From: Natrinema pallidum DSM 3751
GTDB taxonomy: Archaea > Halobacteriota > Halobacteria > Halobacteriales > Natrialbaceae
Assembly (NCBI RefSeq): GCF_000337615.1
Contig: NZ_AOII01000088.1
Coordinates: 1 to 64,000, forward strand
DNA: 64,000 nt
Reading direction: 5' to 3'
Position numbers and translations under genes: made by a program. Shown here piece after piece: positions 3,069-12,223 of the stretch; within the stretch, counting starts at the first letter, position 1, and each line of letters starts with the position of its first letter. Under the pieces are notes generated by a model, which was given only the letters and a program-made list of their open reading frames with translations, made no database searches and was not told the origin of the DNA.

Positions 3069-5303
3069 TTACTTCGAGAGGACGACGTTGTCGAGGAAAC
3101 TCGTATCGTCGCCGGACCGATACTCGCCGCGGATTCGGAGGGTCTCGAGGGTTCCGAGGACCGCTCGGAACCGTTCCTCGGTCGCGAGCGGTTCCTGGCT
3201 CGTCAGATCGATCCAGGTCGCATCGGCCGACAGCGGCACCTCGAAGCTGGTCCATTCCGTCCCCGGTGTGCGCTCGGGGCCGCGGAACTCGTAGACGAGT
3301 TTCGCGCCGCCGCCCGCGAGCAGCACGTCCCCGCCCTCGACGGGTTCGGCGTCGAACTGGCGGTCAGCCCGGGCCTGCCGGAGGTCGAAGGAGAGGGAGC
3401 CGCCGTAGAACGCCTCGCGGTCGCCGAGGAACTTGAACGGAGCCTGATAGTACCAGGCGATGCCGCCCTGGTTCTCCTCGTCGCTCACGTGTCCGCCGGG
3501 GGTGCCGCCGCTCTCGTGGTACACGGGACGGTCGCTCCCGCCGTTCTGCGAGATGAGCCAGCCGTCGTCGTCCTCGTCGAACGTGCTTTCGATGCGCTCG
3601 GGCGGCTCAGGTCCGGTACCGGCGTCGATATCGGCAGCGCGGAACGTTTCGGTGAACTGTTCAGTCCCCTGTTCGTCGTAGATGCCGATCGTCAGGGTCT
3701 CGCCTGATTCGTCGACGTCGACGGTGCCGAAGTTCGCGTATTCGCCCTTGGCGAAGAACTCCGTCGGGTTCAACGGCGGATACAGGTCGTCGGGCTCACC
3801 CGCGGGCGCACCCAATGGACCCGCGATGGCCTCGACGAACTCGAACTCGCCGTCGTCGTCCGGATCGAACGCCCCCACGACCGACTTGTGGACGTCGCCG
3901 GCGACGACGACGAGGTTCGAGATCGGTTCCGTCCGAACGAACTCGAGCAGGTCGAGCAGTTCCGCCTCGTAGCCGGTTCGATCGGCCGGCGTCACCCACG
4001 AGTCCGACGGATATCCCAGCGGGGCCGGCGAGGCGAGGACCTTCCACGTCGCCTCGGAGTCGGCGAGCGCGTCTTTCAGCCACTCGAGTTGTGTCGCGCC
4101 GAGCAGCGTCTTCGACTCGAGTTTGACGTTCGGATCGCGGTACTGGCGAGTGTCGATGAGGAACAACTCGACGTGGCTCCCCCAGCGGAACGAGTCGTAG
4201 AACTGATTCGACTCGCCGGGTTCGGCCCCGTCGTCTCGATCGAGCGGCCAGTACTCGCGAAAGGCCCGTCGTCCCTCGGGCATCAGCGGCTCGATCGGTC
4301 CCGCGAAGTTGTTGACGACCTCGTGGTCGTCCCAGACAGTGTACACTGATGTCGTCTCGAGCAACTCGCGTAAACCCGTCCGATCTGCGACCTCCGCGGG
4401 CGGATCGCGCATTTCCTTGTACTTGGCCCGATAGATCTCGAGGGCATCGTCGAGCGGGGTCTGCCTGGTGATCGTCCCGGCCGGCGTCTCCGCATCGGCG
4501 TAGATGGTATCGCCGTGATAGAGGAAGAAGTCCGGCTTGCGGTCTGCAATGGCCTGCAGTCCCGGGAACGGCGGCTCGACCGGGTCGTCGCCGTACCCCC
4601 ACGTGTCGCCGCTCCAGGCGAACGTAACGCTCGCATCGTCGTCGGGGGCCGGTGCCGTGACGAAGATCCCGCGTTCGATCGCGTCGGGGAGCAGGTCGCC
4701 GGTCACGTCACCACCGGCCGGGGGGTCGTCGCCCGAACGGCTCGCCCCCGGATTCTCTCGAGGGTCGTGACCCGCGGTGTCGGTTCCATCCGACCCGCGA
4801 TCGCTTCGGTTCGAGTGCTCGGTCCCGGGTCCGCTCTCGAAATGCCCTCCTCGGGCGACGTTCCCGCCGCGAAACGGTCGATACGTCGTCTCGGAGCGCG
4901 TTGCCCAGACGTGGTACCGATACCGGGTTCCGGGCTCGAGTCCCTCGAGTCGAACGTGGCCGGTGTGATCGGTCTCGGCGTCGACCGTCGTCCGATCGTA
5001 GCCGATGTCGTCGAACGACTCGGCATGACCGTATGCGACATGGATGGTCGCATCGTCCGCCGTCCGCCCCCAGACCGTCGCCGTCGTCGCCGTGACGTCA
5101 CCGGTCGCGACGCCGTGAGTGAGCGCGACGAGGGCGTCGGCCGTCCCGTCGCGTCCGGCATCGGTTGCGTCGTCCGACTCGGAACCCGCGGCCGCCGTGC
5201 CGACGAGACCGGTCGATGTCGCAGCCAGCCCGATCGTCCGCAGAACCGCTCGCCGATCGTTCGCCATCGAATCCGCTCGTCCGTTGGAGTGTGTGTCTTT
5301 CAT
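3069..5303 (-). CDS. phoD: PhoD-type alkaline phosphatase/phosphodiesterase with C-terminal laminin-B-like domain
   Basis: 744 residues. A Tat-type signal (NDRRAVLRTIGLAAT, about residues 15-29) directs folded export. A PhoD N-terminal beta domain follows (LTHGVATGDVTATTATVWG, ~61-79), then a Gly/Asp/Ser-rich insert (~150-200), then the metallophosphatase core with YHGDTIYAD (~262-270), VWDDHEVVNN (~323-332) and VVAGDVHKS (~466-474), the Fe/Ca-binding residues of PhoD. Residues ~569-744 are not part of PhoD: ESTFDEDDDGW, GGTPGGHVS, FYGGSLSFDLRQ and LRIRGEYRSGDD follow the pattern of laminin B (domain IV) modules. The start at 5303 is preferred because of a CGGAG 3 nt upstream and a TATA box at 5342-5347; an ATG at 5267 (MANDRR) is a realistic alternative. 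Likely scavenges phosphate from extracellular phosphoesters. Confidence 0.88.
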   Translation of the reverse strand: MKDTHSNGRADSMANDRRAVLRTIGLAATSTGLVGTAAAGSESDDATDAGRDGTADALVALTHGVATGDVTATTATVWGRTADDATIHVAYGHAESFDDIGYDRTTVDAETDHTGHVRLEGLEPGTRYRYHVWATRSETTYRPFRGGNVARGGHFESGPGTEHSNRSDRGSDGTDTAGHDPRENPGASRSGDDPPAGGDVTGDLLPDAIERGIFVTAPAPDDDASVTFAWSGDTWGYGDDPVEPPFPGLQAIADRKPDFFLYHGDTIYADAETPAGTITRQTPLDDALEIYRAKYKEMRDPPAEVADRTGLRELLETTSVYTVWDDHEVVNNFAGPIEPLMPEGRRAFREYWPLDRDDGAEPGESNQFYDSFRWGSHVELFLIDTRQYRDPNVKLESKTLLGATQLEWLKDALADSEATWKVLASPAPLGYPSDSWVTPADRTGYEAELLDLLEFVRTEPISNLVVVAGDVHKSVVGAFDPDDDGEFEFVEAIAGPLGAPAGEPDDLYPPLNPTEFFAKGEYANFGTVDVDESGETLTIGIYDEQGTEQFTETFRAADIDAGTGPEPPERIESTFDEDDDGWLISQNGGSDRPVYHESGGTPGGHVSDEENQGGIAWYYQAPFKFLGDREAFYGGSLSFDLRQARADRQFDAEPVEGGDVLLAGGGAKLVYEFRGPERTPGTEWTSFEVPLSADATWIDLTSQEPLATEERFRAVLGTLETLRIRGEYRSGDDTSFLDNVVLSK

Positions 5304-5340
5304 CGCTCCGAGAGGATCACTCCCGACCTGCCACAAGATA

Positions 5341-5350
5341 TTATATATTT
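5341..5350 (-). promoter_or_regulatory. TATA box of phoD
   Basis: AT-rich ttatatattt, standing out in GC-rich surroundings, about 41 nt upstream of the chosen phoD ATG; predicts a short leader of about 15 nt. Confidence 0.5.
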
Positions 5351-5514
5351 TGCATAAGTTGGCGTGAATACGGCACGACCGACGTCCGTCACCGTCGTAG
5401 CAGTATGTATGCGATGGGAGCGACGGGAAATACACCCCTGACGCCGAAACCCGAACGGAGTAGGTCCGTCCCGAGAGCGCTACGTCTATTTGAGTCGGGT
5501 TCCAACTCGAGTCC

Positions 5515-7626: not shown

Positions 7627-9405
7627 TTACTGTCTAACCCGAAGCCGGCCGTAATCGTCGTATCGGAAGCCGGCGGTTTCGAACGCGGCCTTCGCCGCGT
7701 CGACATCGACCTCGCCCTCCGAGCCCAGGAACGGTGTTTCGGGATCGGTGCCATGCCACTCGAGGCTCTCGGGGACCCAGTCGTCGGTGACCGGGGTCGC
7801 GATGGGACGGGCGTGCCCGTGGAACACCTCGTCGACGAGCCACTCTTTGTCGACTAACTGCGCGAGCAGCCGCCGAAACCGGTAGTTGCTAAACGGCGCG
7901 TCGCGGGTGTTGAATCCGAGACAGTAGAACGTCCACGGCGACGCGTCGCGCATCGCCACTCCGGCGGGGGTCTCGACGCCGTCGATATCGGCCGCGCCGA
8001 GCGGGAGGCTCGTCGCGTCGGCGTCGCCGTTCGCGACGACCTGTGCCGCCGTGTCGCCGCTCGGGTGGATGTCGATACGACACTCGTCGACGGTCGGTGC
8101 CGGGAGATCGACCCCCGGGCGACGCGTGAAGTGATCGTCGAACCGCTCGAGGACCAGCTGGGCACCCTCGGTTCGCCCGCCGAACTGGAAGGGGCCGCTC
8201 CCGATCGGCGGGATGTTGTTCGTGGCGACGGCCTCCGTCGTTCCCTGGGCGACGCTGGGGCCGCCGGGTCCAACGACGTCGACCGCCCGATCGCGCCAGT
8301 GGTGGGCGGGAAGTATCGGGACGAGAAGCGCGCGCGCACCGACCGCCGGCGACGTTTCGACCGAGAGTTCGACGCGGTGGTCGGTGCGACTCTCGACCGA
8401 CTCGACGGCGTCGACCTGACCCCGATACAGGGGAGCCGGCGAGGGCGTGCCGTGGTTGCCAAGCGAGGTATCCTGGAGGAACCGATACGTGAACTCGACG
8501 TCGTCGGCGGTCACCGGCTCCCCGTCGTGGAACTCGCAACCGTCCCGAAGGGTGATGTCGACGGTCCGATCGTTCCACGCCCATGATTCGGCGAGCCAGG
8601 GTTCGATAGGGCCGTCGCCGTTCTTGGTCGCCAGCGAGTCGTACAGCAGATCCGTGATCGTGCCACGATCACGATAGTCGGTCGCGATCGGATTGCAGTT
8701 CTCCGTGAGCCTGCCGTCGAGATGGGCCAATCGAAGCGTATCGACGCCCGCGGCCGGCTCGAGGCCGAGATAGCCGTGGCGAGTCGCGGGGTGACCCTCA
8801 TCCCAGCCGTCGAACCGGTCCGTCCTGACGACCCGATGCTCTTCGGGGACACAGAGCGGGACGAACGGCTGCTCGGTCGCGATCGCCTCGAGCATCGCCG
8901 TGACCGCCTTGCGGCGCGCGTCGCCCTCGGCGGTTCGCTGCGCCACGAGGTGGGTGTCGATGTTCCGGTCGGTGAATCCGAACGGGTTCTGCCACCCGGA
9001 CTCGTCGATATACCGCGAGTACAACGCCTCGTAGAGGAAGTCGGGATCGGTCCCGCCCGGATGGTGGCCGACACAGATCTCGAACTCGTGGTCGTACAGT
9101 ACCGCTCGGCGGAACTCGATGTCGGAGCGAAGGTCGAGGGACACGTCGATTCCGACGGCCCTGAGGTTTTCCTCGAGATGCCGCGCGATGCGGATGGCCT
9201 GTCTGTCCGCGTCCGCGGGGACCGTCGTGATCGTCACGGAGAGCTGTTGGATGTCGTCCGTTCTGACGATGTTCCGGACCCGACGAAGACAGCCGCTGCT
9301 CGAGACCGTCAGTCCCGCGGCCGTCGCCAACATGGCTCGCCGACTGAGCGACTTGCTGTCGCCGCCGCGGCGCTCTCGATTTGGAGCGGTCCGTCTCCTG
9401 TTCAT
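7627..9405 (-). CDS. Tat lipoprotein solute-binding protein, circularly permuted SBP_bac_5 (paralogue 1)
   Basis: 592 residues. A Tat motif (SRRAML, 21-26) and a lipobox (VSSSGC, Cys39) predict a lipid-anchored binding protein outside the membrane. The segment order is unusual. Residues ~55-200 (LSVTITTVPADADRQ, AVGIDVSLD, DPDFLYEALYS, FVPLCVPEEHRV) correspond to the C-terminal third of normal peptide/nickel-binding SBP_bac_5 proteins. Residues ~222-310 (LLYDSLATKNGDG, WLAESWAWND, CEFHDGEPVTADDVEF) correspond to their N-terminus. The protein ends with the canonical middle (CLGFNTRDAPFSNYRFRR, AAKAAFETAGFRYDD). No permease or ATPase gene is near. It is paralogous to the gene at 10424-12223 and shares its promoter element. 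The ligand is unknown; peptides or other organics are plausible. Confidence 0.85.
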   Translation of the reverse strand: MNRRRTAPNRERRGGDSKSLSRRAMLATAAGLTVSSSGCLRRVRNIVRTDDIQQLSVTITTVPADADRQAIRIARHLEENLRAVGIDVSLDLRSDIEFRRAVLYDHEFEICVGHHPGGTDPDFLYEALYSRYIDESGWQNPFGFTDRNIDTHLVAQRTAEGDARRKAVTAMLEAIATEQPFVPLCVPEEHRVVRTDRFDGWDEGHPATRHGYLGLEPAAGVDTLRLAHLDGRLTENCNPIATDYRDRGTITDLLYDSLATKNGDGPIEPWLAESWAWNDRTVDITLRDGCEFHDGEPVTADDVEFTYRFLQDTSLGNHGTPSPAPLYRGQVDAVESVESRTDHRVELSVETSPAVGARALLVPILPAHHWRDRAVDVVGPGGPSVAQGTTEAVATNNIPPIGSGPFQFGGRTEGAQLVLERFDDHFTRRPGVDLPAPTVDECRIDIHPSGDTAAQVVANGDADATSLPLGAADIDGVETPAGVAMRDASPWTFYCLGFNTRDAPFSNYRFRRLLAQLVDKEWLVDEVFHGHARPIATPVTDDWVPESLEWHGTDPETPFLGSEGEVDVDAAKAAFETAGFRYDDYGRLRVRQ

Positions 9406-9436
9406 TTCGTTCGTCTATCATAGTTGACGAGCCACC

Positions 9437-9450
9437 TTATAACAGTATTG
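9437..9450 (-). promoter_or_regulatory. TATA box and shared upstream element of SBP paralogue 1
   Basis: On the minus strand CAATACTGTTATAA, with the TATA part (9437-9442) about 34 nt upstream of the ATG. The 13-mer at 9438-9450 differs by one base from that in front of SBP paralogue 2 (12255-12267), indicating a duplicated promoter or a common regulator. Confidence 0.5.
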
Positions 9451-9554
9451 TGCTCCTCCAACAGCACGCGACCGCCGTGATCGCAGTACCGGACGGGTCA
9501 GGGCTGTGCCGTGGCTCCCGGCACACGGTCACCGGCCGGACGTGTGACTCGTCG

Positions 9555-10418
9555 TTATTCGCTTCGTTCCAGCCACGGTATCCGGTCCTCGAACCGCTCG
9601 AGTCGCTCGCCGAGGAGTTCCGAGACCGCCCAGCGACCGACGAGTCGGTCGGAGAGAACGACACAGAGCGCTGCAAGCAGCATTCCCGCGACGACGTCGA
9701 TCCCCCAGTGGATGCCGAGGAACATCGTCGAAATCGCGACGCTGGCCGCCAGCGCGACCGCGACGGGGAACCACTTCGGAAACGTCGAGCGCGTTATCGC
9801 AGCGAACGTGGCGACGGTCGCCGAGAGCGATGTATGAAGCGATGGGAAGACGTTGGTGTTGCTGTTGACCTCGCGGGTGAGGTACTGGTACTGCGGATTG
9901 TTCTCGAACAGCATCGTTGCCGCCACGTCGGCCGGCATCACGTTTCGAGGGCCGTACGCGATGACGAAGATGTAGAGGACGAGTCCGATCACGTAGTTGA
10001 GCGCGTACGCCGTTAACAGCCGGCGGAACATCCGCGTGTCCGGCAGCGTGAAGTACGCCAGAACCGGGAAGACGATCAGGAAGACGTAGCCGTACACGTA
10101 GATCGACGAGAAATACGCCGTCGTCTCCGGCGTTGCGATCGACTGGAAGAGCAGGATGAACTCCCCCTCGATGTTGTAAAAGCTCGCGGTGAGGTGAAAC
10201 CCGATCTCCCGCGAGAGACGCGGTGCACGCTGTCTGGCAAAGCGATTGATCAGCAAGACCACGAGCAAGACGGCGATCGTCGGTGCTGCCGTTTTGAGGC
10301 GAGTCCGCCACTCCGATCGTGTCCGTACGAGGCGCTCACGACCGACGAAGAGAGCGATCGAGACCGGGAGGAGAATCCCGACTACGACGACGAGCTGAAT
10401 CAGCACCTCGGCGAGCAT
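9555..10418 (-). CDS. PAP2-superfamily membrane phosphatase
   Basis: 287 residues with about six membrane helices. The PAP2 phosphatase motifs are recognisable: YGPRN (~155-159) for the first, FPSLHTS (191-197) for the second, and GIHWGIDVVAG (235-245) with His237 and Asp241 for the third. The family dephosphorylates lipid phosphates or transfers head groups (as in inositol-phosphoceramide synthases). The active site would face the outside in the usual topology. The gene starts 5 nt after the stop of SBP paralogue 2, so it is almost certainly translated from the same mRNA, and it is followed by SBP paralogue 1. The substrate is unknown; the tie to lipoproteins may be accidental. Confidence 0.8.
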   Translation of the reverse strand: MLAEVLIQLVVVVGILLPVSIALFVGRERLVRTRSEWRTRLKTAAPTIAVLLVVLLINRFARQRAPRLSREIGFHLTASFYNIEGEFILLFQSIATPETTAYFSSIYVYGYVFLIVFPVLAYFTLPDTRMFRRLLTAYALNYVIGLVLYIFVIAYGPRNVMPADVAATMLFENNPQYQYLTREVNSNTNVFPSLHTSLSATVATFAAITRSTFPKWFPVAVALAASVAISTMFLGIHWGIDVVAGMLLAALCVVLSDRLVGRWAVSELLGERLERFEDRIPWLERSE

Positions 10419-10423
10419 CGCTC

Positions 10424-12223
10424 CTAATAGCCCCCAAGCAGTCGCCCGTTATCATCGTATCGGAACCCGGCTCGTTCGAAGGCCACTTTCGCGGCTTCGA
10501 CGTTGAGATCGCCGTCAGCGCCGGCAAACGGCGTTACTGGATCGTCGCCACTCCACTGGAGTCGCTCCGGGACCCACTCGTCGCTGACCGGCGTTGCCAC
10601 GGGCGTTGCGTTCCCGTAGAACACGTCCGTTACGATCCCTTCCTTGTCGATCAGTTGTGTGACCGCCCTGCGAACGTGTGGATTGCTGAAGGGTGCGTTC
10701 CGGACGTTGAACCCGAGATGATAGAACGTCCGCGATGGGGAGCGGAGCCGTTCGAGGTCCGACGAGTCCGGAATCGTCGGCAACGAATGCGGACTGAGCA
10801 TCGTCGCCGTGACGTCCGCGCCGCCGTCTTCGATGCGAGTGATCGACGAGTTGCTCGACGGATCGACGGAGAACTGCACCTCGTCGACCGTCGGCTCGGG
10901 GAGGTCGACGCCGTCCCGAAGCGTGAAGTGGTCCTCGAATCGTTTGAGGACGAGCGACTCGTCTTCGGACCGACTCTCGAACTCGAAGGGGCCGCTCCCG
11001 ACCGGCGGGATGTTGTTACCCGAGACGACTGCCCACCGCCCCTGCGGTGCGGTGAAATCGTCGCCCGTGGCGTACTGATCGAGCAACTCGAGCCAGACGT
11101 GTCTGGGCAAGACCGGTACGGTAAACGCCCGCTTGACGGCCTCCCGACCGCCCGACGCGGTGATCGTGACCTCGTAGTCCCCGTCGACGCTCACGGCTTC
11201 GATTACGTCTGCCCGGCCCCGATACCGCGGTGCCGGCGACCGAACCGGTGCTCGTCCCCACGACGTATCGTTGAGGAATTTATACGTGAAGGCGACATCC
11301 GCGGCGGTCACGGGCTCCCCGTCGTGGAAGTGACACCCCTCTCGGAGCGTGATCGTGGCCGTTCGCGTCGTCTCTTCGTCCGCCGTCTCGGAGTCCGACT
11401 CCGCCGTCGTCTCCGCGATGTCCCACGACTCGGCGAGCCACGGTTGGACGTCGCCCCCGTGTTCGGTCCCTAGGGAGTCATAGAGCAGGTCGATGGTCGT
11501 CCCGCGGTTCCGGAACGTCGCCGAAAGCGGGTTGAGATTTCGGGTGATCCGACTGTCGGTGACGAGCGCGTGCAACCGGTCGACGCCCGCGGCCGGCTCG
11601 AGGCCGAGATAGCCGTGGCGAGTCGCGAGGTGGCCCTCGTCCCAGCCGTCGAACCGATTCGCTTGAGCGACGCGGTGCTCTTCGGGGATACAGATCGGGT
11701 CGAAAGGCTTCGCCCGTGCCAATCCCGTCAGGACGGCCTCGACGTGTCGCTTGCGCTCGTCGCCGTCGGTTCGACGCTGGTGCTCGAGATGCGTATCGAA
11801 GGCCATGTTGGTGAACCCGAAGGGGTTCTGCCAGCCGGCCTCGTTTGCGTACGTGGAGTGAAGGGCTTCGTAGAGGAAGTCGGGATCGTAGTCGGCGGGA
11901 TGACGGCCAATGTAGCAATCGAAATCGTGCTCGATCAGGACAGCTTCCAGTAGTTCGGACTGCGATCGCATGTCGAGCGAGACGTCGATACCGACCTTCT
12001 CGAGGCTCGCCTCGAGCCGACGGGCGATCCGGACGTTTTGCCGATCCGCGTCCGCGGGGACCGTCGTGATCGACAGCGAAAACTGCTCGTCGCCGCCCTG
12101 ATCGACGACGCTCTGGACGCGGTCGATACAGCCGCTCGTCGCGAGGGTCGCACCGGTTACGCCGGCGGCCAGAAACGACCGTCTGCTCACGCCGTCGTCG
12201 GGCGGGGAGGAATTCCAATTCAT
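10424..12223 (-). CDS. Tat lipoprotein solute-binding protein, circularly permuted SBP_bac_5 (paralogue 2)
   Basis: 599 residues from ATG 12223; a GTG at 12238 is also in frame but lies too close to the TATA box. Tat motif (SRRSFLAAG, ~13-21) and lipobox (LATSGC, Cys32). Same permuted order as paralogue 1: ITTVPADADRQNVRIAR and KVGIDVSLD near residues 53-90, DPDFLYEALHS ~115, then LLYDSLGTEHGGD and HFHDGEPVTAADVAFTYKFL in the middle, ending HLGFNVRNAPFSNPHVRR and AAKVAFERAGFRYDDNG. It differs from paralogue 1 by an acidic insert (SDSETADEE) before the FHDGEP motif. It heads an operon with the PAP2 gene. Permease and ATPase partners are absent from the window. Confidence 0.85.
   Translation of the reverse strand: MNWNSSPPDDGVSRRSFLAAGVTGATLATSGCIDRVQSVVDQGGDEQFSLSITTVPADADRQNVRIARRLEASLEKVGIDVSLDMRSQSELLEAVLIEHDFDCYIGRHPADYDPDFLYEALHSTYANEAGWQNPFGFTNMAFDTHLEHQRRTDGDERKRHVEAVLTGLARAKPFDPICIPEEHRVAQANRFDGWDEGHLATRHGYLGLEPAAGVDRLHALVTDSRITRNLNPLSATFRNRGTTIDLLYDSLGTEHGGDVQPWLAESWDIAETTAESDSETADEETTRTATITLREGCHFHDGEPVTAADVAFTYKFLNDTSWGRAPVRSPAPRYRGRADVIEAVSVDGDYEVTITASGGREAVKRAFTVPVLPRHVWLELLDQYATGDDFTAPQGRWAVVSGNNIPPVGSGPFEFESRSEDESLVLKRFEDHFTLRDGVDLPEPTVDEVQFSVDPSSNSSITRIEDGGADVTATMLSPHSLPTIPDSSDLERLRSPSRTFYHLGFNVRNAPFSNPHVRRAVTQLIDKEGIVTDVFYGNATPVATPVSDEWVPERLQWSGDDPVTPFAGADGDLNVEAAKVAFERAGFRYDDNGRLLGGY

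Follow-up and report, generated by a model that had tools for sequence, protein, structure and literature searches.

Two genes of Natrinema pallidum DSM 3751, here called P1 and P2, encode predicted solute-binding lipoproteins whose halves appear to stand in exchanged order. This raises the question of whether they are circular permutants of the peptide/nickel-binding family SBP_bac_5, how such an order would have arisen and what the proteins do. Both lie in the stretch of 64,000 nucleotides which was analysed as a whole (contig NZ_AOII01000088.1, positions 1 to 64,000; "the window"). The locus consists of three genes, not two, with a PAP2-family gene located between P2 and P1 (Table 1). Twin-arginine motif and lipobox were recognized by eye at both N-termini (TVSSSGC in P1, LATSGC in P2), with Pfam TAT_signal scoring below its cut-off. 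P1 and P2 are 52% identical over the whole length and collinear. The same genes, with both paralogues side by side, are present in Natrinema altunense (96% identity to P2) and N. gari (94%). An assembly or frame error as source of the permuted order was excluded, since the genes recur in independent Natrinema assemblies. The downstream gene at 3069-5435 (minus strand) has, by eye only, the look of a Tat-exported PhoD-type phosphatase, so that another phosphatase would be encoded close to the PAP2 gene. Elsewhere in this genome, a third permuted gene is found on contig C81, followed by dppB, dppC and two ATPase genes, and three canonical SBP_bac_5 genes are present as well.

Table 1. Features of the P1/P2 locus of N. 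pallidum; positions refer to the window, h to positions of the home-built profile.
Feature	Position	Strand	Basis
P2, predicted lipoprotein of permuted SBP_bac_5 type (599 aa; lipobox Cys32)	10424..12223	-	Pfam, own profile
P2 segment A (h376-527), C-terminal third of canonical members, comes first	11642..12088	-	profile, PDB phmmer, alignment
P2 joint region, canonical C-terminus to canonical first strand	11537..11641	-	profile, alignment
P2 segment B (h60-371), N-terminal two thirds of canonical members, comes last	10445..11536	-	Pfam, profile
PAP2-family membrane phosphatase gene	9555..10418	-	PF14378 E 4.8e-15, PF01569 E 5.2e-10
P1, predicted lipoprotein of permuted SBP_bac_5 type (592 aa; lipobox Cys39)	7627..9405	-	Pfam, own profile
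P1 segment A (h372-527), C-terminal third of canonical members, comes first	8803..9267	-	own profile
P1 segment B (h57-369), N-terminal two thirds of canonical members, comes last	7654..8706	-	Pfam, profile

Pfam SBP_bac_5 (PF00496, 368 positions) was the sole Pfam family over its cut-off in P1 and P2 (167 and 186 bits, respectively; cut-off 32.4). The best match covers profile positions 2-284 and corresponds to residues 267-586 of P1 (E 6.5e-49) and 259-593 of P2 (E 1.6e-54). Because it stops at position 284 of 368, the proteins look at first sight like shortened binding proteins of normal order, truncated at the C-terminus and preceded by an unrelated domain. However, both contain a second stretch, which in P2 matches profile positions 281-362 and is encoded at C88:11858-12097, i.e., at the N-terminus. 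When P2 was compared to the PDB using phmmer, residues 290-546 aligned to 83-312 of Bacillus subtilis AppA (1xoc) and residues 27-193 to 339-501. A home-built profile of 544 positions, prepared from 17 canonical members, matched P1 with h372-527 at residues 47-201, then with h57-369 at residues 234-584; for P2 (numbered from the 604-aa start), h376-527 was found at 51-199, then h60-371 at 235-598. The N-terminal segments score 43-47 bits on h372-527. With this segment placed at profile 281-362, AppA 339-501 and h372-527, a truncated protein of normal order has practically no probability left.

On the same profile, canonical members span approximately h1 to h542, in nearly every case without interruption, and P1 and P2 cover h57-371 and h372-527 of the 544 positions with one joint and essentially no loss. 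In MAFFT alignment A1, canonical C-terminal thirds, taken in isolation, aligned to the initial 150 residues of P2, and the N-terminal two thirds of canonical proteins to the remainder. The reversed order was agreed upon by Pfam, NCBIfam, PDB phmmer, the home-built profile and BLAST. The sequence-only reading had proposed a circular permutation with the ends joined, and h372-527 was indeed found to precede h57-371 in both proteins. Profile searches placed both segments in SBP_bac_5 in rotated order; neither an N-terminus derived from another family nor a full-length match in normal order was obtained. As the domain elements do not follow the canonical N-to-C order, P1 and P2 are classified as a permuted variant and not as ordinary SBP_bac_5 members. 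On the sequence evidence, the permutation is clear, and we consider it highly probable that both are natural circular permutants of SBP_bac_5 (cluster C), formed by head-to-tail fusion and trimming with the fold kept.

The structure of P2 was predicted by AlphaFold2 as one confident fold (pLDDT 84.3, pTM 0.85); the input alignment held fragments pre-cut at the presumed boundary, hence, the model depends in part on the sequence argument. The best 50 Foldseek matches of this model were family-5 binding proteins, with TM values of 0.32-0.45 (query-normalised) and about 400 of 568 columns aligned, a coverage to be expected for a permutant because the program keeps the chain order. For a Synergistaceae permutant with another cut, a pTM of 0.85 was obtained and about 300 columns were aligned by Foldseek. 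After rotation, the secondary structures of the P2 and Synergistaceae models were the same at 88.5% of 453 profile columns, compared to 31-37% when shifted. PDB sequence searches returned no solved structure with permuted order. The family-5 fold and its ligand cleft are predicted to be kept in P1 and P2, and the lipid anchor would, from the position of the cut, be located on the second lobe. Since permuted proteins and canonical sisters occur beside the same kind of permease, the permutants provide a test of the need for a lobe-specific anchor in transporter docking.

The origin of such an order can be followed in two haloarchaeal permuted groups having unpermuted sisters with 36-48% identity, which makes the path of permutation traceable and allows rebuilding it in the laboratory. 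Residues 237-656 of the permuted, Haloferax-type protein L201 align to 54-467 of the canonical L227 (48% identity), and residues 59-239 align to 476-656 (43%), gapless and reaching the last residue of L227. Just 8 residues are missing, at the cut, and residues 237-239 of L201 align to both ends of L227. The permuted L225 and the canonical L226 follow the same plan, and their signal peptides match, too. In both pairs, the joint connects the canonical C-terminus directly to the N-terminus of the mature canonical protein. This plan is the prediction of tandem duplication, in-frame fusion and trimming, and the sister pairs thereby support tandem fusion as the origin.

For P1 and P2, an ancestral gene would have been fused head to tail with its own copy and trimmed afterwards, whereby the old C-terminus would have been connected to the old mature N-terminus. 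The chain would now open on the surface of the second lobe, in a hairpin loop that immediately follows the helix AAKxAFExAGF, and a new Tat/lipobox leader would have been placed before segment A. Segment B of P2 ends in a D-G hairpin, the site of chain opening, and no internal signal peptide remnant was seen in the sequence of the P2 joint region. In another haloarchaeon, one open frame (L200; genome G002, C1:2358000-2370000, minus strand) comprises two canonical SBP_bac_5 domains in head-to-tail arrangement behind a single leader. The existence of this double protein indicates that a tandem intermediate is viable, and L200 is possibly a living analogue of it.

A different route to the same order would be a chimera, in which the C-terminal fragment of one binding protein was joined to the N-terminal fragment of another; the event is old, and descent of both parts of P1 and P2 from a single gene is not provable by sequence alone. 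However, when trees were built for part A and part B separately, a single clade of type-1 permutants was compatible with each, and trees in which these were held together outscored the free search (AU test, p 0.88 and 0.71). In addition, both parts of the younger permutants match one canonical sister with 37-48% identity, up to or near its very ends. A chimera is thus quite improbable, and fusion of a gene with its own copy is preferred.

The haloarchaeal genomes were surveyed for the permuted order, which is widespread. P2 gave matches with E < 1e-35 in about 191 of 292 Halobacteria genomes, and among the matches listed, most were full length in permuted order. Outside the haloarchaea, 53 genomes of this phylum gave only matches in the canonical range. 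Within a small survey of ten haloarchaeal genomes, 14 of the 49 SBP_bac_5 genes over the cut-off were permuted, 13 of which were taken from loci read directly or close copies and one (G031:C3) from a collinear P2 match; permutation is common here and apparently recurrent in family 5. The further proposal that the permutation predates the duplication leading to P1 and P2 held as well, given that the paralogues are collinear and the order is common to Halobacteria. The trees support a much greater age, as the permutation appears to be shared with alphaproteobacterial proteins.

Plasmid records yielded further haloarchaeal permutants and permuted members in the Alphaproteobacteria Ketogulonicigenium, Microvirga, Roseomonas, Nitratireductor, Neorhizobium and Maritalea. 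Most of these genes directly precede permease and ATPase genes, and several are accompanied by genes for M20/M28 peptidases or hydantoinase/oxoprolinase. The alphaproteobacterial permutants L121, L123, L125 and L127 belong to one type of operon, in which genes for both hydantoinase/oxoprolinase and M20/M28 peptidases occur; this hints at a substrate of the cyclic-amide or pyroglutamyl type. Six permutants from termite-gut Synergistaceae (L007, L010, L012, L013, L017 and L020) are cut at profile position ~231 and are located directly before DppB-type permease genes. Such permutants are annotated plainly as 'ABC transporter substrate-binding protein', and the changed order goes unseen. Some candidates were rejected: the haloarchaeal L205 and L206, for which truncated Pfam matches were misleading, keep the canonical order and carry a long insertion that separates the middle from the C-terminal third, close to the opening loop of the permutants, and two-piece matches on Cytobacillus and Meiothermus plasmids proved canonical.

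The number of permutation events was examined by comparing cut positions and by trees built from rotated sequences. P1/P2-type proteins are cut after the helix AAKxAFExAGF, C81-type proteins before this helix, which now stands at the N-terminus, and Synergistaceae proteins at h~231. The P1/P2 type, including the alphaproteobacterial members, forms nearly one clade (AU p 0.49); the trees also put L157, a canonical row, within the type-1 group on a long branch, and its placement is uncertain. Should a single permutation be ancestral to all permuted members, the cut point must have changed later. A clade of P1/P2 type plus Synergistaceae is in fact allowed by the AU test (p 0.139), even though the cut point argues for a separate Synergistaceae event. 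In contrast, a clade of P1/P2 type plus C81 type is rejected, if modestly (p 0.033 and 0.036). Moreover, within the C81 neighbourhood of the trees, the permuted L201, L222 and L228 are sister to the canonical L223, L227 and L229 (support 100/100), and the C81-type permutants to the canonical L226 (80/88). With three differing cuts and separate canonical sisters, a single permutation is unlikely. A common permutation of C81 type and L201 type, with the helix swapped between the ends, was considered but dropped; each has canonical sisters of its own, which favours two events. The simplest reading of the sequence comparisons suggests about four separate permutations.

As to function, most permutants outside the P1/P2 clade, whether from haloarchaea, Alphaproteobacteria or termite-gut Synergistaceae, adjoin a complete operon for a Dpp/Opp-type transporter. 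These permuted relatives are very probably transport receptors, from which we infer that permutation leaves the transport role intact. The P1/P2 clade differs in its neighbourhood. A PAP2 gene adjoins the binding protein gene in 22 of 24 loci (noted for the window and L101-L120, L126, L140, L204 and L209) and is absent from two; a linked dppBC or other ABC permease gene was found in none of the 24. The adjacency spans many haloarchaeal families. In Natrinema, the gene order is SBP-PAP2-SBP, without PAP2 after P1, and in some other genomes SBP-PAP2-SBP-PAP2.

Going by gene neighbourhood alone, there is about an even chance that P1 and P2 act together with the neighbouring PAP2 enzyme, binding a small organic ligand at the cell surface; the clade would have lost its linkage to an ABC permease and kept the membrane phosphatase next door. 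Alternatively, they could be ordinary receptors that supply a Dpp/Opp permease encoded elsewhere and stand next to a PAP2 gene by coincidence. Binding proteins of the orphan kind are frequently encountered, further dpp operons are present in this genome, e.g., near C41 and C81, and in the other permuted lineages examined the binding protein gene is followed by dppBC-type permease genes. Such a role is a serious possibility, somewhat short of an even chance, yet an incidental PAP2 neighbour fits poorly with 22 of 24 loci in many haloarchaeal families and a linked permease in none. The combined scenario, in which family 5 was permuted at least four times at different loops and the P1/P2 branch abandoned ABC import for a two-gene receptor with PAP2 in most haloarchaea, is put forward only tentatively.

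The gene between P1 and P2 is a member of the PAP2 superfamily membrane phosphatases (PF14378/PF01569), and we know of no described pairing of a PAP2 phosphatase with a binding protein. P1 and P2 resemble OppA, DppA, NikA and AppA (SBP_bac_5/cluster C, PF00496) in family sequence and in predicted fold, and would likewise be secreted and anchored. Whereas most of these relatives are encoded beside ABC permease operons, the P1/P2 clade is without linked permease and has a rotated chain order. In the open literature searched, no natural circular permutant of family 5 was found, and the sole permuted ABC binding protein found was TpMglB-2 (Tp0684) of Treponema pallidum. This naturally permuted ABC-type binding lipoprotein binds glucose and changes its shape on binding (PMC4990184). 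TpMglB-2 and its relatives belong to the glucose/galactose family of cluster B with another topology and cut point (PMC4990184), and the event is not homologous to that of P1 and P2, for which SBP_bac_5 was the only Pfam match over its cut-off. Among the published cases found, this treponemal protein, a permutant from a different fold cluster, comes closest to P1 and P2.
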